From Hysterangium stoloniferum (lineage: Eukaryota > Basidiomycota > Agaricomycetes > Hysterangiales > Hysterangiaceae), in NCBI GenBank assembly GCA_015178975.1, contig WHVD01000003.1:992001-1056000 (forward strand): DNA of 64,000 nt. The letters run 5' to 3'. The notes under the pieces are model-generated. The model was not told the origin of the DNA. It did no database searches and was given only the letters and a program-made list of their open reading frames with translations. The position numbers were made by a program, and so were the translations under genes. Every line of letters begins with the position of its first letter. Position 1 is the stretch's first letter. Shown in pieces: positions 960 through 13,000 of this stretch.

Positions 960-3900
960 GAGTATTGAAGAAAACTCGATCATGTTGAAAAAGATTCCTG
1001 TGTAATATTACGAGCGGTAACAATTTCTGATTCTTTAACTATCGAACTTAAATCAAAGAAAATTCCGAAAATAAAAGCATTAATTGATTCAGGATCTAGT
1101 CACATTTTTATGGACAAAACATTTGCATGACAAAATAATCTACCTTTCAATCAGTTAAAAAATTCATTATCATTGAAATTAATCAATGGATCAATTCCGA
1201 CATCAGGACAAATTACATATACGACTACGTTACAAGTTTATTTTCCATCTGGGCAAACTCAAGAATTACAATTCTTTTTAACCAATCTCAACTCATCTTG
1301 ACAAGTGGTATTAGGACTCAACTGGCTGAAGCAATACAATCTTGCGATTGACTGGTGATCTGGCCGTATATTGTTTGAACCTACTTCGACACCTTCAACA
1401 AATCCAAATCCAATTTAACTGTCAATCAAAATGTTATCAGAAGAGAAGCATGCTTTGACCTTGGCGAGTCAATCATCTACATCTGAGAAAATCCATGAAG
1501 AATCAAAATCTGAGACTATTAATCCAAATATCAATATAGTCAATCAGAAGACATTCTTACAAGCTGCGAAAGCAAAAGATTCTCAAACCTTTGTAGTCTT
1601 TATTCGTGACAAATCTTTCAAGACTTGTAAGGCCTCTGGTGCAAAAACTACAACTTTGACTTCATTCGACATACCAAACATTCCGACTGAATATTCTGAT
1701 TTCTCAGACCTCTTCGACAAAAAAGAAGCTGAAGCTTTACCTCAACATTGAAGTTATAATCATGCTATCCCATTGTTACGACCCATTTCCGGATGTTTCA
1801 ATATCTGACTCCTGACCTCCGACCTCCAACTTCCAACTTCCGACCTCTGACTATAGAACATCATAGTTACCGTATCTTCCACATTCTTCCCTTGTTCCAC
1901 ATTTGGTAATTTGACCATTGACAAGTATTCACTCATTTGTCTATTATATTCCCGTTTCGGAATATTGTCTCCCTGATATGTCTTATTGTATTCTCCTTTC
2001 AGAATACTCCTATTTCCGTCTTATTATGGTCTTAGTTTGTAGTACAATAACGAGAAGACTTATATTAGTTTCCATGAATTTGTACTTTACTTTAGGTCTG
2101 ATATCGACTTAGTTTCTTATTCCCTCTTTCGTCTTTCTGTACGCTTGATATTCGGAACTCTTCGTAACTCTGAATATCTGTATCTTCCATTGTAAGTCTC
2201 ACCTCTGAAATTAAGGACTTTGAGCATTTGCGTAGAGGTGCAGCACATAAGCTGAAGCCAACGTCCTGACCCTATCCAATAGTTCCCGACTTTCCAGTGA
2301 GTTTCCGATAGTTCCGGAATAAGTTCCCAACACGGCACTTAACACCCATTATAAGAAGGAACTACTCCACTGATGGGTCCAATCTATTCGTTATCGGAGA
2401 CAGAACTTCAAGTGTTATGAGAATATCTCCAAGAAAACCTTTCGAAAAAATTTATTTGATCATTGCAATCTCCCACCGGCACACTGATTTTATTTGTGAA
2501 GAGAAAGACGGAAGTCTACAACCTTGTATCGATTATCGAGGACTTAATAAAATTATGTGGAAAAATTGATATCCACTTCCTTTAATTCCTGATCTTTTCG
2601 ATCGACTTCAAACAGCGAAATATTTTATGAAAATCAATCTCCGAGGCACCTATAATCTAGTTAGGATTGCTCCAGGTGACGAATGGAAAACAGCCTTTTG
2701 GACTTGATATGGATCTTTTGAATATTTGGTTATGCCTTTTGGATTATGCAACACTCCAGCAACCTTTCAACAATTAATGAATGAAATATTTTCAGATTTA
2801 CTTGATATGTTTTTGGGTAATTATTTATCTCAATGACATATTAATATTTTCTGACAATCTTGAAGAATATTTACGACATGTTTGAGAAGTTCTTCGACGG
2901 CTTCAACAAAATCGATTATTTGCAAAACCCGAAAAATGCAAATTTCACAAAACCAGTGTCGAGTTTCTAGGATATGTTATTTCTCCTCAAGGTGTATATA
3001 TGGACGAAGAAAAAATCAAAGTTATTCAAGACTGGCCCGAACCACAAAAAGTCTGCGACATTCAATCATTTTTAGGATTTGCGAATTTCTATCGAAGATT
3101 TATTCCAAGTTATTCTGAAATCGTTTTACCGTTGACTTGACTTACTCGAAAAAAGGTTCAATGGCATTTCGACAAAAAATGTTGACATGCATTTAACTAT
3201 TTGAAAAAAGAATTTACTACAGCTCCGATTTTAATTCATTGGAATCCAGACTATAAACCTATACTCGAAACTGACGCTTCTGATCATGCTATAGCTTCAA
3301 TATTTTCTATGCAGACTCCCAATAATGAAATTCATCCAGTTGCTTATCATTCAAGAACTCTTTCGACCTCCGAAATCAATTACGACACTTACGATAAAGA
3401 ATTATTGGCAATATTCGAATCTTTCAAAATTTGGCGATATTATTTTGAAGGAACAAAAGAACCAATTGAAGTTTTAATGGATCACAAGAATCTTGAATAT
3501 TTTGCGACAACTCAAATTTTGTCTCGATGACAAGCTTGATGGGCAGAATATTTATCGACCTTTAATTTGATTATTCGATTTCGACCAGGAAAACTAAATT
3601 TGAAAACAGATGTTCTTTCCAGAAGAAATGATGTTTATCCGAATGAACCTGACTACTCGAAAAAGAATCCGACTAATCTTCGACCGGTATTTACGAATGA
3701 GCAAATTCAAGCTTCCTTACATGCAACATATTATCTTCCAATAGTGAGAAAAGCTACTCTCATTATGGATATGGATCAACTATTGAAAGATATATTCAAA
3801 GCTCAAAAAGAAGATCAATTTACTCTTGACAAAATTCGACAGATTTCCAATGGTACTGAAGAAGATTGGCAAAAGAACGAACAAGACTTTTTATGTTTCC

Positions 3901-5226
3901 AAAACAGAATTTACGTTCCCGATTATCAAACTCTCTGACTTCGAATTCTTCAATCACGACACGATCATATTACTGCAGGCCATTTCGGTCAAACGAAAAT
4001 GTATCGAACAATATATTGAGATTTCTTTTGGCCACGACTCTGACAAGATATTCAAAGTTTTATTTGATCATGTGTAACATGTACAAAATCGAAAACTCCA
4101 CGACATCGACCTGTTGGATTACTTAAGCAACTTCCGATTCCTCTTCGACCATGGCATTCAATCTCGATGGACTTTATCGAACAATTACCGACTTCAAATG
4201 GTTATGACTCAATACTCGTAATCGTCAATTGACTTTCGAAGCAAGCAATATTCATTCCAATGTATACTACGATCAACGCTCCTGAACTCACTCGACTTTT
4301 CGTATTACATGTCTTTTCAAAACATGGAGTCCCCAGTCATGTAACTTCTGATTGAGGATCCGAATTCATATCGCATTTCTTTCGATCTCTCGGAACAGCA
4401 CTCGACATGAAATTACATTTCACTTCCGGATATCATCCTGAAGGCAATGGACAAACCGAATGAGTCAATCAAACCCTCGAACAATATTTACGAATGTATT
4501 CCAATTATCAACAAGACAATTGGGCTGAATTACTTCCTTTAGCCGAATTCGCTTGCAACAATGCACCTTCCAAAACAACTGGTGAAACGCCATTTTTTGC
4601 TAATAAAGGTTATCATCCATTGTTAGAAATTCACCCTGAAAAAGATCTAGCTTCCACTCTAGCTCACGATTATACGACAGATCTCGAAGCTCTACATAAA
4701 CATCTCAAATCAAATATCCAGAAAGTGCAAATACGTTATCAAAAATATTTCGACATACATTGAAAAGAGTCTTTCGACTTTCCGATCCATTCTCAAGTCT
4801 TCGTACGATCTGACTTTATTTGAATGACTCGACCATCGAAAAAATTATCAGAAAAATTATTAGGCCCATTCGAAATCATTGCTTGACCAGGATCTCATCC
4901 ATATACATTAAAACTCCCCAATCATCTCAAAGGAATTCATCCCGTCTTTCACGTCTCAATGTTAGAACCGTTTTATCCCAATACTTTCCCAAATCGAAAA
5001 CAACCTCCTCCTCCTCCAATTTATGTTGAAGAAGAACCCGAATATGAAATTTGAGAAATTTTGGATTCAAAATTCGATAAAAGATATAAAGATTCATTAT
5101 AATATTTAGTTGCTTGGTTAGGTTACGAAGGAACAGACGGAGAAACTTCATGGTTAGGATCTCAAGATCTCAAACATGCTTTCGACCTTATCGAAGAATT
5201 TCATCAAAAATATCCAAATCTTCCAT
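960..5226 (+). pseudogene. pol polyprotein of family A (PR-RT-RNase H-IN-chromodomain)
   Basis: Protease shows the active-site triad as LIDSGSSH at about 1082-1105. RT begins near 1740, is cut by a solo LTR and resumes at 2350. It shows FVKRKT, WKTAF and MPFGLCN; the catalytic box reads YLND instead of YLDD and lies behind a frameshift (about 2815-2850). RNase H has ETDASDHA (about 3265) and YDKELLAI. Integrase has the end of the zinc-binding domain near 4070, SMDFIEQLP (first Asp), TSD-x-GSEF (second Asp) and HPEGNGQTE. The C-terminal chromodomain contains YLVAWLGYEG and is followed by TAA at 5226. About twenty in-frame TGA codons lie where Arg is expected, for example within SR-QA-WAEY and GQTE-VNQTLEQ. 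It would copy and integrate the element if intact. Confidence 0.92.
1774..2344 (-). mobile_element. solo LTR, family D-related, inserted in pol
   Basis: The sequence is 571 bp, starts TGTTACGACC and ends GGCACTTAACA. It is flanked by the TSD CCCAT (1769-1773 and 2345-2349). Removing it joins the two halves of the RT N-terminus. The reverse-complement copy is the solo LTR at 28048-29298. It carries the shared CAGC...GCTG motif at 2238-2259, about 85 bp from its own 5' end. Confidence 0.92.
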
Positions 5227-5329
5227 AACATTAAAAATTTCATACAACTATCTTTCGACACTTATTTCAACATCTATTCGACAAAATCGAAAAACATATT
5301 AAAATGTAAAAACATCAAAATTTAAGTAT

Positions 5330-6156
5330 CTACAAATCTTCAATCCCTTCCTCTCTCAATTCTGCCACCTTATCCAACCATGCCCCCCTAAATCTTCCAC
5401 TATTAACGCTAATGTCAGTCTCCTCACTAAAATCACCACTTTCGACCAATTTCTTCGACAAAACTGAAAAATCCTTTCTGAATGCTTTCACCTCACCAAT
5501 CAAATTTTCCATCATTTCCTCCAACTTCGACATCCTTTCGCCAATCAATTTTATCTCTTTCTCTAAGTCCTTATCCAATCGATGTTCCAACCTTCTCGAC
5601 CGTCTTGAAAAATTTGACAATCTTGACATGACGTTGTGATGACTATTTTTCCTTTGCCCAAGTTAGCACTACCATCTTCGCTTTCATTTCCCGATTCTTC
5701 AATCACATTTCGACTCTTTTTTCCATTTCGACGCGGTTTTCCAGCTGGCCTATTTACGGTCCAATAACAGGCCCGATGCAACCGATTGCACCGATTGCAA
5801 TTCGACGACGCATTAGTTTTCTTGCACACAAAATTTGTGTTAAAACACATTGTGCAACTGGAAAAAACAAATTAGCAAAATTCAACAAAAATTCGACAAA
5901 ACCGAAAAATTACAAATTTTCTGATTTTGCTTCAAATTCCCATTGCATCCCAATTCCCTTACAAGTTGCCTTATTGAATGGTTCTTTGCAGTCTTCTATC
6001 CACTTTTTGGGAATTTCTTCTAAAAAATAACTAATTAACTAATTTTAAAGAAATCCCAGAAATCGACTTACCAACCGCATTAACAACCACATCTCTATCC
6101 TCGAAACCCAAAAACTCGGATCCTGATTCGAGTTGATTGACTTCTATATCAGACAT
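5330..6156 (-). CDS. antisense spliced gene in chromovirus, putative Zn2Cys6-type protein
   Basis: I read three exons on the strand opposite gag-pol: 6156-6072, 6019-5914 and 5857-5330. Introns are 6071-6020 (52 bp, GTAAGT...TTTTAG) and 5913-5858 (56 bp, GTAATT...TTCCAG), and both junctions keep phase. The predicted protein is about 239 aa. It has an acidic N-terminus (MSDIEVNQLESGSEF), then a cysteine cluster at about residues 65-94 with spacing C-x2-C-x6-C-x8-C-x2-C-x6-C. That is the spacing of fungal Zn(II)2Cys6 DNA-binding clusters. A basic stretch (GKPRRNGKKSR) and a probable coiled coil (EKEIKLIGERMSKLEEMM region) follow. A 1-nt deletion in an A-run near 5645-5652 is needed to join the coiled coil. 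The start lies about 80 bp inside the 3' LTR, so that LTR could supply an antisense promoter. Function is inferred from cysteine spacing only; few basic residues lie inside the cluster, so another zinc-binding role is possible. Confidence 0.6.
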
Positions 6157-6223
6157 TGATTGAGGAACACGAAAATAGACAATGAAAAAACTTTTCAAAC
6201 TCCGACCTCGTGGGCTCGGTCAC

Positions 6224-6233
6224 AAAGGGAGGA
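6224..6233 (+). other. polypurine tract of family A
   Basis: AAAGGGAGGA sits three bases before the TG of the following LTR. Such a tract primes plus-strand DNA synthesis in LTR retrotransposons. Its position fixes 6237-6666 as the 3' LTR and gives the element plus orientation. Confidence 0.75.
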
Positions 6234-6236
6234 TAC

Positions 6237-6666
6237 TGTCACAACTGTCACATGTCACATACTGTCACAAACATTCAAAGGTAACTTTCGACAACTCTTT
6301 GACCTATCGAATTCAACTCGACAAAACTGAACATTATTCAACACCATCAAATCTCTTTCAACATGTCTCATTTCGACGTCATATATGATTTCATAATTAG
6401 TTCATAACATAGTCATAACGATACGATGAAAAGCATAAAAGGGCTACGAAAGGAGCGAGGGAAGTCAGTTGAAATATCTGTATATTAGTGATATTAGTAA
6501 TCTATCTTGTCGTAACTTCTTCGACAAATACTTCCGTGAGTTCTCACGACTGGTAATAGCCTCTTACTTCATCGACAGGGTGAATATATACTTCATCAAA
6601 CAAGGCTTTCGAGTTCAATTAATAGAATATTATTCGACTTTATCAAAGAATAATTGATTCGTGACA
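6237..6666 (+). mobile_element. 3' LTR of family A chromovirus
   Basis: The sequence is 430 bp, from TGTCACAACTGTCACATG to AATTGATTCGTGACA, directly after the polypurine tract. The solo copies at 199-629, 8882-9310 (both reversed) and 28123-28814 (same direction) share the whole length. No TSD can be matched because the 5' side is outside the window. Confidence 0.88.
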
Positions 6667-7617
6667 AGTATGATAAAAGCTAAAGACAATACTTAGCTCA
6701 ATTGACCAGAGTGTTATGACTTGAAAACCCCACCAGACTCTGGGACCTACCCTATAGGCACCAGCACCCTATACACACCAGTTGTCAGTTTACCAGAAAA
6801 CCTGCCAGACTCTGGATGTCAGACCTGTCTATGCTTGACCTCCGTTACTTCATGTATCAGTCACCGGAATACCCGCCGGGACCCACACACATCATACCTG
6901 TCTATCACTGACCCTGTCCCATGTACCAGTCACCAGACTCTGCTGGCAAACCTGTCTGTGCTCTAACTGAACCCCATTCCCATTATGGTCTAATGACCTG
7001 TCATGTTTCAGACTCTGCTCTGCTCCGTTCCATTCCTAATACCAGATTTGGTGTTTACTTATCTTGTTTTATGATTACTTGTTTGGATCTCATTATTACT
7101 GGATTTAGTATAGCACACATTCCAAAGTCTATATAACCTAGCTAATGTTGTACATACAATCTGGTCAGAAAATCAACTAAGTTCTCAGCTAAGTTGTCAG
7201 ACAAACTCCTCTTAGTTACTTTAGATTCCCACTCCATCTCCACACAATGCTCAACCTCATCAGAGCCCATGGGCTTTCCAACAGGTCCTTTCCCTATCGA
7301 CCTCCGACTTATCAACCTCCAACAAATCACCTCCAACAAATCACCTCCACCCAGACTCCCCGGGTTTCCCATCCACCTGTCTGAAATTGGATGACACAAT
7401 CTCATGAGGATGCAGCCTATAAGCTGAAGCCAAGTCCTACTGGCCTTCCTGTGGGTTTCTCTGGAAACCCTCCAATAAGCTCTGTGCACACTTGTTAAGA
7501 ACTGAAAACTGACTAATGTCGGTAGGCCAACGGGGACCAATCAGAAGGACTTGGCTTCAGCTTATGCGCTGCACCCTCACAAGTTACCGTCAGGTGTCCT
7601 TAAATTTTGGGCGGGCA

Positions 7618-8881: not shown

Positions 8882-9310
8882 TGTCACGAATCAATTATTC
8901 TTCTATAAAGTCAAATAATATTCTACTAATCGAACTCGAAAGCCTCGTTCGACGAAGTATATATTCGCCCTGTCGATGAAGTAAGAGGCTATTACTAGTC
9001 GCGAGAACTCACGGAAGTATTTGTCGAAGAAGTTACGACAAAGTAGATTACTAATATCACTAATATACAGATATTTTGACTGACTTCCCTCGCTCTTTTC
9101 GTTGCCCTTTTATGCTTTTCATCGTATCGTTATGACTATGTTATGAACTAATTATGAAATCATATATGACATTGAAATGAGACATGTCGAAAGAGATTCG
9201 ATGGTGTCGATTAATGTTTGGTTTGTCGAGTTGAATTCGATAGGTCGAAGAGTTGTCGAAAGTTACCTTTGAATGTTTGTGACAATATGTGACATGTGAT
9301 GGTTGTGACA
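8882..9310 (-). mobile_element. solo LTR, family A, nested in family D LTR
   Basis: The sequence is 429 bp, TGTCACGAATC to GGTTGTGACA, with the TSD TGTGA on both sides (8877-8881, 9311-9315). It is highly similar to 199-629 and in the same orientation. Confidence 0.93.
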
Positions 9311-10024: not shown

Positions 10025-13000
10025 TTATAAGATTTGGAGAAGTCCAGGACGAGGGCCCGCGACGGCGGTGGGAATAGTATTGATAATGGCGGTAAGTCGG
10101 AGAACATCAGCTGGACCTGTATTAGGTGTGGGTATTGGGGCCGCAAAAGCGGGTGGGGCGGCATTCCCTGGGTTAATCTGTGGTGTAGGAATTGTGGCCG
10201 CGCCGCCGGGGGCACCGCCATTGTTGATGGGGTTTCCGATGCGACCTCCTCTCCTGCCCCAACTCCAATCACCACCGCCACCACCGCCACCACCGCTACC
10301 ACCGCCACTACTACTGCCTCCGCCCCAACTCCAGGTGCTGTCAACGCCTCCGCCTTGATTCCAATTGTTGGGATCGCTTCCAACGCCTCCGCCTTGATTC
10401 CAATTGTTGGTATCGCTTCCAACACCTCCGCCCTGATTCCAATTGTTGGTATCGCTTCCAGCGCCTCCGCCCTGATTCCAATTGTTAGGATCGCTTACAA
10501 CGCCTCCGCCCCGATTCCAATTGTTGGTATCGCTTCCAACGCCTCCGCCCTGATTCCAATTGTTGGTATCGCTTCCAACGCCCCCGCCCTGATTCCAATT
10601 GGTATCGCTTCCAACGCCTCCGCCCTGATTCCAATTGTTGGTACCGCTTCCAACCCCATTCCAAGTGTTGCTGCTCTGGCGTATGTTACTACTGTCCTGG
10701 GCTCCACCCGGATCGCTGTTGGTACCGCTCTGAGGTCCACTCCTACTGTTGTTGATATCGCTCTGGGATCCACTCCAACCATTGCCGCCATCGTAGTTGT
10801 CGTCACCGTGGTCATGGCCATGCAAGCTTTTGTAGTAGTAGTCGTCATGCCCGTAGCCCTCTTTATCATCCGAGTCGTAATCGCCGGTGCCGTGACTGTA
10901 GTAGTTGTCGTCGTCGTACTTATGATTATCATGCTTGTGATTATCCTCATTGTGCTTGTCGCCGTCATACTCGTCGCCGTCATGGTCGTCGCCGTCATGC
11001 TTGTCGCCGTCATGCTTGTCGCCGTAGTGCTTGTCGCCGTCATGCTTGTCGTAGTGCTTGTCGTCGTAGTGCTTGTCGTCGTCATGCTTGTCATCGTCAT
11101 GCATGTCGCCGTGCTTGTCGTCGCCGTGCATGTCGCCGTCATGCTTGTCGTCGTAGTGCTTGTCGTCGCCGTGCTTGTCGCCGTCATGCTTGTCGTCGTA
11201 GTGCTTGTCGTCGTAGTGCTTGTCGTCGTAGTGCTTGTCGTCGTCATGCTTGTCATCGTAGTGCTTGTCGTCGTCATGCATGTCGCCGTGCTTGTCGTCG
11301 CCGTGCTTGTCGCCGTCATGCTTGTCGTCGTAGTGCTTGTCGTCGCCGTGCTTGTCGCCGTCATGCTTGTCGCCATCATGCTTGTCGTCATCATGCTTGT
11401 CGTCGTAGTGCTTGTCATCGTAGTGCTTGTCATCGCCGTGCTTGTCGTCGTCATGCATGTCGCCGTGCTTGTCGTCGCCATGCTTGTCGTCGCCATGCTT
11501 GTCGTCGTCATGCTTGTCGTCGCCATACTTGTCGTCGTCATGCTTGTCGTCGTCGTGCTTGTCGTCGTCGTGCTTGTCGTCATGCTCGTCTTCGAAGTGC
11601 CCGTGCTTGTCGTCGCCATGCTTGTCGTCGTCATGTTTGTCGAAATGCTTGTCGTCGTCATGCTTGTCGAAATGATTGTCGCCGTCATGCCTGTCGTCGA
11701 AATGCTTATCACCGTCATGCTTGTCGTCGAAGTGCTTGTCGTCGAAATGCTTGCCATCATCATGCTTGTCGAAATGCTTATCACCGTCATGCTTGCCGTC
11801 GTCATGCTCGTCGTCGTCATGCTTGCCATCGTCATGCTTTTCGAAATGCTTGTTATGCTTATCACCGTCATGCTTGTCGTAGAAGTGCTTGTCGTCGAAA
11901 TGCTTGCCATCATCATGCTTGTCGAAATGCTTATCACCGTCATGCTTGTCGTCGTCATGCTTGTCGAAATGCTTGTCATGCTTATCACCGTCATGCTTGT
12001 CGTCGAAATGCTTGTCGTCGAAATGCTTGCCATCATCATGCTTGTCGAAATGCTTGTCATGCTTGTCGTCGAAATGCTTATCACCGTCATGCTTGCCGTC
12101 GAAATGCTTGCCATCGTCATGCTTGTCGTCGTCGTCATGCTTGTCGTCGTCGTCATGCTTGTCGTCGTCGTCATGCTTGTCGTCGTCGTCATGCTTGTCG
12201 TCGTCGTCATGCTCGTCGTCGTCGTGCTCGTCGTCGTCGTGCTTGTCGTCGTCGTCGTCATGCTTGTCCTTGGAGTGCTTGTCGTCGTCGTCGTGCTCGT
12301 CGTCGTCATGCTTATCATTGCCGCCGCCGCCGTCGTCATGCTTGCCGTCGTGCTTGTGATCGTCATTGAAATGATCGTCGTCGTCGTGCTTGCTGTTACC
12401 ATGTTTGTCGACGTGCCTGTTCTCGCGCTTGTAATTGTAGTCGTCGTCGTCGTGCTTGTAATCGTCGTCATAATCATAGTACTTGTAATCTTTGTCGTCG
12501 TCGCCGTGCTCGTATTCATAACCGTCGTACTTCTCCCGGCTATGATTGGAAAGATCACTCGTGCGGTCGCCGCCTTTCAATGCTTGGGCACCGGCGTTAC
12601 CATCACCGTTAGAGTTGCCACCGACGAATACTGCACTATTGCTGCCCGGACCACTACTACTGACAATTGTTTTGCCGCCGTTTGCAGTATTATTGCCGAC
12701 GAGTGCAGCACTCCCGCCCGAACCGGTACCAACGACGGTTGTATTGTTGGTGCCACTGCCGATCGCAGTATTGTTGCCGACGAGTGTAGCACTAGCGACG
12801 ATTGCCTTGTCAGTGATGTTGCTATTCGTAGTATTGTTGCTGACAAGTGTAGTACTGGCGCCGCCCAAACCATTACTTGTGACAATTGCCTTGTCAGTGA
12901 AATTGCCGCTCGTAGTATTGTTGCCGACAAGTGTAGCACTAACGACGATTGCCTTGTCGGTGATGTTGCTGTTCGTAGCATTGTTGCCGACGAGTGTAGC

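Follow-up and report, generated by a model that had tools for sequence, protein, structure and literature searches.

An intron-containing antisense gene with zinc-cluster cysteine spacing in Ty3/Gypsy chromoviruses of Hysterangium stoloniferum

The brtn gene of Boty-like Gypsy elements in Botrytis cinerea was reportedly described by Zhao et al. in 2011. In the available text of two other sources, it appears as an additional antisense gene of the Boty element of Botrytis (PMC7264820; PMC8365987). In plants, antisense accessory genes of Grande, RIRE2, Retand and PvRetro13 lie in the slot considered here, between pol and the 3' LTR; GENE23 of Grande is nuclear and has its own promoter, and the TRP28 domain of Retand is predicted to bind DNA (main texts of PMC7264820 and PMC11963269). 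The same main texts leave open what antisense accessory genes do in LTR retrotransposons.

The window analysed here comprises 64,000 nucleotides of the Hysterangium stoloniferum genome (contig WHVD01000003.1, positions 992,001 to 1,056,000 of the forward strand). It holds a copy of a Ty3/Gypsy element, family A, with a degraded 3' part of pol (3201-5234, plus strand; RNase H, integrase and chromodomain, 90% by tblastn to the ORF of another family A copy, L079), a polypurine tract (6224-6236, plus strand, read by eye) and a 3' LTR (6237-6666, plus strand, TGTCA..TGACA) rich in the tetramer TCGA (8 occurrences versus 1.3 expected). The 5' end of the element and part of an LTR lie upstream of the window. 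The L079 pol ORF matches Pfam PF00078, PF17917, PF00665 and PF00385 (E 5.3e-6), and has the RT/RNase H, integrase and C-terminal chromodomain of a chromovirus. Reverse-oriented LTR copies of family A occur at about 199-630, where one interrupts the 5' part of the element, and at 8882-9310, downstream of the 3' LTR. From position 10298 on, the window has tandem arrays with a 39-bp period and, further along, a 15-bp period.

Between the end of the chromodomain (pol stop near 5228) and the polypurine tract and 3' LTR, the minus strand at 5330-6156 carries a gene of three exons with two GT-AG introns and six cysteines. In what follows, conservation refers to 55 aligned copies of family A. Exon 1 (6072-6156) starts with an ATG at 6156-6154 and is 85 nt long in 51 of the 55 copies. 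Intron 1 (6020-6071; 52 nt, GTAAGT..TAG, phase 1) keeps its donor GT in 53 copies and its acceptor AG in 52. Exon 2 (5914-6019) is 106 nt long in 48 copies. Intron 2 (5858-5913; 56 nt, GTAATT..CAG, phase 2) has the acceptor AG in all 55, with a donor GT in 38 and AT in 15. The six cysteines, spaced C-x2-C-x6-C-x8-C-x2-C-x6-C, lie at 5767-5856 in exon 3 (5330-5857), and each is kept in 53 to 55 copies. The exon coordinates, the lengths and ends of the introns, and the cysteine spacing (5856-5767 in reading direction) had all been proposed in a first-pass annotation of this DNA, and all are confirmed.

Family A thus has a conserved antisense ORF between pol and the 3' LTR, i.e., an antisense accessory ORF (aORF-3R). 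It shares with the plant genes its slot, its strand and its conservation within lineages; Retand differs in belonging to a non-chromovirus lineage and in having TRP28 (PF04195) instead of a cysteine cluster, and the main texts on the plant elements contain neither the word "intron" nor "zinc", with no family-specific DNA word in the available text (PMC7264820; PMC11963269). As an extra antisense gene in a fungal Gypsy element, brtn is likewise comparable to the family A gene. Boty differs, however, in being an ascomycete element, and "zinc" is absent from the available text of PMC8365987.

The copy in the window is a frameshifted relic, since its exon 3 is 528 nt long, as opposed to 538 nt in 42 of the 55 copies. 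A basic stretch does follow the six-cysteine cluster, as first annotated, but the spliced frame ends after 161 codons, and the coiled-coil part (5330-5629, minus strand) is open only in a frame other than that of the cysteine cluster; in this copy, the two do not form the one continuous product that had been proposed.

To examine other copies, the genome (111 Mb, 554 contigs) was searched. At least 40 close copies of the antisense stretch were found, and at least 155 matches to exon 3 (best 150 of 182 candidates scored), with identity down to ca. 35%. Altogether, 71 copies were fetched; the 55 that could be aligned over the whole gene were kept, and 16 were left out because of deletions, insertions or poor alignment. 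An open frame of 242 codons together with GT-AG at both introns was counted manually in 8 of 40 copies examined, and exon 3 is fully open in 17 of the 71 fetched. The ratio dN/dS in the antisense frame was 0.157 for 91 pairs of 14 chosen diverged copies, with a median of 0.167 over all 1485 pairs of the 55 copies. In the same DNA, the two shifted antisense frames gave 1.14 and 0.96, and the sense-strand frames gave 1.08, 0.24 and 1.21; the low value (like 0.34 in family B, below) is as expected for the mirror frame, where the third positions of both strands are paired. The first-pass annotation had asked whether the frame is intact in other copies with a Ka/Ks below 1; a conserved frame, whose absence from other copies had been named as counting against the gene, was looked for in the 55 copies and found. 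The six cysteines, in order, are kept in 55, 55, 54, 54, 53 and 54 of them. Codon statistics of pol were kept out of this argument, because masking of 30-nt windows below 75% identity, applied on account of non-homologous stretches (18 of 20 copies used), favours conserved DNA.

Non-CpG variants shared by at least two of the 55 copies occur at 0.22, 0.16 and 0.76 per site at codon positions 1, 2 and 3, while the corresponding figures for singletons are 0.28, 0.24 and 0.34 (Fisher p 2e-7, in a test that pools non-independent sites). Constraint is strong on shared variants and weak on singletons, which indicates a protein under constraint during the multiplication of the copies and under hardly any once they had inserted. 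Codon periodicity and the kept cysteines rule out a chance ORF. A gene on the sense strand of this DNA, 163 codons long in L079, was also considered and rejected: among the 55 copies, only L036, which is the locus of L079, has this frame with at most one, terminal, stop, and the variation tracks the third codon position of the antisense frame. We conclude that the family A antisense gene is real, with strong support for the gene, its introns and the selection on it; it is a three-exon gene of ca. 242 codons, whose protein was selected during replication of the family and which then decays in individual copies.

CpG decay is clearly at work in these copies. The last exon base before the intron 2 donor is C, which with GT forms a CpG, and it is this donor that reads AT in 15 of the 55 copies; in decayed copies TGA predominates among the stops, frequently at positions where other copies have arginine. 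Some copies are recent, as judged from their near-identical LTRs: the two LTRs of L077 (ends TGTCA..TGACA, flanked by a CCATT duplication read by eye) differ at 9 of 429 aligned positions, and those of L079 are 99% identical over the 233-nt stretch compared. Comparison of L077 with L079 in 200-nt windows gives 91.5-96.5% identity for pol and 83-90% for the antisense stretch.

What kind of protein family A encodes was approached through profiles and structure prediction. Zn2Cys6 domains follow the pattern C-x2-C-x6-C-x(5-12)-C-x2-C-x(6-8)-C and usually have basic residues between cysteines 2 and 3. The family A domain agrees with the spacing and lacks these usual basic residues. In family A, the label "fungal zinc cluster" of the first-pass annotation is borne out by the spacing, not by the PF00172 profile: none of 17 intact exon-3 proteins matched PF00172 at E up to 10, and comparison by eye placed none of the 83 PF00172 matches in the genome on the family A matches listed. 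Judged by sequence, the family A protein would not be a member of PF00172 and shares with Zn2Cys6 domains the spacing alone. None of the matches listed from Pfam, NCBIfam and PDB identified the cysteine domain; weak profile matches of family A proteins were to coiled coils, and the nearest matches of the cysteine domain were to PHD-type fingers (E 0.08-0.44, in two copies). The AlphaFold model of an intact copy has a long helix at residues 73-142 (pLDDT 76-87 in the best blocks) and a cysteine region (blocks 1-30) with pLDDT of 37-48; a fold search with this model, cysteine region at low pLDDT included, returned a single, unrelated match. No relatives of the 242-aa protein or of the A1 profile were found in a large protein set, no match to the protein in viral contigs, and no loci for pol in viral or genome contig sets; all of these sets are probably poor in spliced fungal genes, so that these negatives carry little weight.

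The genome also contains loci where several PF00172 clusters are crowded together, namely L084 (C115:74483-75050), C56, C37, C308, C309, C209, C85 and C550, with many open frames of ca. 200 codons. Loci of the L084 type form an expanded family of multi-zinc-cluster genes, for which no link to the antisense gene was seen.

Antisense genes of the same layout accompany other chromoviruses of this genome. A piece of Trametes pol gave 3809 first-look candidates, of which the best 150 were scored; these are 70-73% identical to it and have many long open frames. Named pol relatives come from Trametes, Coprinellus, Leucocoprinus and Pisolithus, and several of the candidates in the genome lie no more than a few kb from where a contig begins (e.g., C103, C16, C1). 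Three loci were read downstream of pol, B1 (L085), B2 (L086) and C (L087), and all three have an antisense gene with a cysteine cluster in the same slot. An antisense match lies 108-325 bp downstream of pol, on the other strand, in 19 of the first 20 pol matches. The first-pass remark that no gene with this domain was known from a fungal chromovirus therefore understated the case, as the arrangement recurs within one genome. Exon 3 of family B has at least 151 matches (best 150 of 632 candidates scored) and that of family C at least 150 (best 150 of 1285 scored). The longest predicted splice models, to which alternatives exist, have three exons and 298 (B1), 287 (B2) and 294 (C) codons, with introns of 47-53 nt, both in phase 0, and second exons of 81, 84 and 57 nt, respectively. 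In family B the antisense frame gave a dN/dS of 0.228 (115 pairs of 16 copies chosen mostly for open frames; fetched copy L098, in which the cysteine pattern was not found, was left out), with 1.17 and 1.41 in the shifted frames and 1.12, 0.34 and 1.50 on the sense strand.

The B and C proteins are homologous (BLASTP 3e-8), and their cysteines, spaced C-x2-C-x6-C-x9/10-C-x2-C-x6-C, likewise follow the Zn2Cys6 pattern; a long helix is predicted after the Zn2Cys6-like domain. PF00172 matches three of eight B and C members, with a best E of 0.8 and with 10.1 bits in L087, which is below the curated cut-off of 21 bits, and one of the 83 genomic PF00172 matches (C203:26125-26172; E 1.02, 16.9 bits, also under the cut-off) falls inside a family B match. 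Against PDB, five of seven matches of a B/C profile were to Zn2Cys6 regulators, and all 16 Foldseek matches of a family B model were to Zn2Cys6 DNA-binding domains, each match being weak in both searches. On these profile and model matches, the label "zinc cluster" appears better supported for B and C than for family A. Profile alignment of family A with family B was not significant (probability 0.9%), intron phases differ (1 and 2 in A versus 0 and 0 in B and C), and homology between the A and B antisense genes is unproven. The B/C profile had no match in the viral and genome contig sets, probably poor in spliced fungal genes; all evidence on B and C comes from one genome.

Within family B, the antisense gene is part of a mosaic. 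The pol genes of B1 and B2 are 98% identical overall (96-100% in 150-nt windows, 89% in the last). Identity is 82% at the pol end and then falls to 51-74% over the antisense gene and as far as the first part of the LTR, with 51-72% in the antisense windows themselves; beyond the LTR start the windows give 93, 89 and 86%, the final one 71%. We conclude that the antisense cassette of family B was either exchanged or diverged at a far higher rate than pol. The mosaic boundary, seen when L103/L085 are compared with L105/L086, is sharp.

Each family is enriched in a short DNA word. In family A (L079:3309-9767, 6.46 kb), TCGA occurs 121 times versus 22.6 expected (5.4-fold), and TTCGAC is enriched ca. 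14-fold. Pairs of TCGA exactly 9 bp apart number 10 versus ca. 2.3 expected, and within pol the word occurs in all three codon phases (19, 11 and 7). In the window, the stretch concerned is 3165-6671. The top tetramer of pol is TCGA in A (37 versus 6.5 expected) and CCGA in both B1 (62 versus 20.1) and B2 (61 versus 19.9), whose almost identical pol means that the two do not count as independent; in C it is CGGA (70 versus 19.9). None of 500 synonymous codon shuffles reached the count of the own word in any family, whereas in a copia control the mild excess of TCGA (50 versus 28.7) was reached by 91 of 500. Since the words were picked as the best tetramer of each family, the split between pol and the 3' region serves as a guard: in the 3' region, the own word was found 30 times versus 4.6 expected in A (LTR included), 24 versus 10.1 in B1, 29 versus 9.4 in B2 and 34 versus 13.7 in C, ranking first, fourth, second and first, respectively, among tetramers. 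In LTR stretches, counted from the LTR start, it was found 8 versus 1.3 and 13 versus 1.5 times in A, 10 versus 2.5 in B1, 8 versus 2.5 in B2 and 14 versus 3.9 in C. Summed over 38 A copies, the counts are 420 versus 92 for TCGA, 271 versus 111 for CCGA and 166 versus 117 for CGGA; over 15 further B copies, they are 301 versus 145 for CCGA, 78 versus 68 for TCGA and 103 versus 154 for CGGA.

The words are not strictly family-specific. Family A also has a 2.5-fold excess of CCGA, and CGGA is enriched in B pol (its count is reached in 9 and 10 of 500 shuffles) as well as in the B1 LTR (9 versus 2.7). Word positions are mostly non-homologous between A and B1 (4 common of 35 and 38) and partly homologous between B1 and C (24 common of 61 and 70). 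Classical Zn2Cys6 regulators read CGG triplets; CGG is contained in TCGG of B and CGGA of C, and is absent from TCGA of A. What links word and protein is correlative and comes from three families in a single genome.

The tetramers might be enriched independently of the antisense protein, as relics of an earlier host or through codon usage or CpG-context mutation. This is a serious possibility, falling only a little short of an even call, and both the CpG decay evident in TGA stops at arginine positions and in C|GT donors turned to AT, and the G+C content of family A (0.38 versus 0.49), speak for it. However, all families share one host and one decay process and yet differ in the favoured word, and the enrichment goes beyond synonymous shuffles and holds in LTRs.

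Dense family-specific words together with an exchanged reading module are the trace that a self-recognition or anti-silencing system would be expected to leave. We put at even the proposition that the gene encodes a DNA-binding protein that recognises the DNA of its own family and serves transcription or anti-silencing. The gene is accessory to a Ty3/Gypsy chromovirus family and occupies the antisense strand between pol and its 3' LTR; considering the life cycle, this placement would let the introns survive, because the sense genomic RNA, the template of reverse transcription, does not contain them as introns. The antisense mRNA may start in the 3' LTR or within the some 80 bp that precede the ATG. 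Its protein would enter the nucleus, dimerise through the coiled coil and contact its family's double-stranded DNA at a short CG-centred word amplified along the whole element, TCGA in A, CCGA in B and CGGA in C. Binding could then promote transcription of the family's own copies or counter their silencing, functionally like VANC of VANDAL. The sign of the effect may be activation, protection or repression. Regulation of the LTR or targeting of DNA, suggested in the first-pass annotation, is a putative role to which motif evidence now also points. A wider proposal is that a lineage of Agaricomycete chromoviruses carries an exchangeable antisense zinc-cluster cassette that reads a family-specific CG-centred word spread along the element. 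A family would thereby mark its own copies alone and activate them or shield them from silencing, a self-recognition comparable to VANC/VANDAL; this proposal is tentative, and we consider it possible rather than probable.

Alternatively, the protein may act in replication or integration, either by binding DNA or RNA of the element inside the particle or by tethering the integration complex to chromatin. Its gene adjoins the chromodomain and integrase end of pol, the protein is small and basic with a coiled coil, and the words extend over the whole element, coding parts included; on the other hand, a gene that is antisense and has introns, and hence its own mRNA, stands outside Gag-Pol, and the history of the cassette, through divergence or exchange, is independent of that of pol; such a role is unlikely. 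Decidedly unlikely is a repressor or interference factor, for copy-number control or against competing families, kept because it limits damage or excludes rivals. The cassettes do differ sharply between families within one genome, and a regulatory role, RNA silencing included, is discussed for plant antisense ORFs by comparison with retroviruses in the available text of PMC7264820. Purifying selection in spreading lineages, though, is easier to reconcile with an advantage for the copy that carries the gene than with self-limitation. That only the antisense RNA matters, e.g., in RNA interference, with the frame incidental, is extremely improbable and largely refuted by dN/dS values of 0.16 and 0.23 in the antisense frames and by the kept cysteines and splice sites, even if antisense non-coding transcripts of retroelements are known (PMC7264820, available text).

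Returning to a protein that recognises its own family, we found in the open-access literature searched no antisense zinc-cluster gene in a fungal retrotransposon, no selection on one and no family-specific words. Antisense accessory genes in this slot are already known; what that literature did not yield is a zinc-cluster type combined with family-specific words. Families A, B and C offer a class of antisense genes with a recognisable DNA-binding type, codon-level selection, many variants in one genome and a predicted word per family, which makes the question of function directly testable in vitro. If the proposal is true, family-specific recognition of their own DNA would be seen to evolve in retrotransposons and not just in DNA transposons, and the joint occurrence of introns and antisense coding would be explained.

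Among known systems, the retroviral antisense factor of the HTLV type is a bZIP-type protein. HTLV antisense genes produce an antisense regulatory protein from the 3' LTR, as is proposed here, and differ in this protein type and in coming from an unrelated virus group; such genes are mentioned in the available text of PMC7264820. GAL4, HAP1, PUT3, PPR1, LEU3 and Pho7 resemble the proteins described here in having two C-x2-C-x6-C halves followed by a coiled coil, and the model of family B has weak fold matches among Zn2Cys6 domains; they differ in that here the PF00172 cut-off is unreached, family A is without the basic segment between cysteines 2 and 3, and the genes are retrotransposon-encoded. 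VANDAL is a DNA transposon. In the available text of PMC5735166, VANC words are 8-9 bp long and lie mainly in non-coding tandem repeats of a plant element, whereas the words found here are 4 bp long, dispersed and present also in coding DNA, and are candidate targets recognised by their enrichment. The likeness to the working proposed for the chromovirus gene would lie in the principle, an element-encoded protein that recognises short family-specific words accumulated in its own family (PMC5735166).
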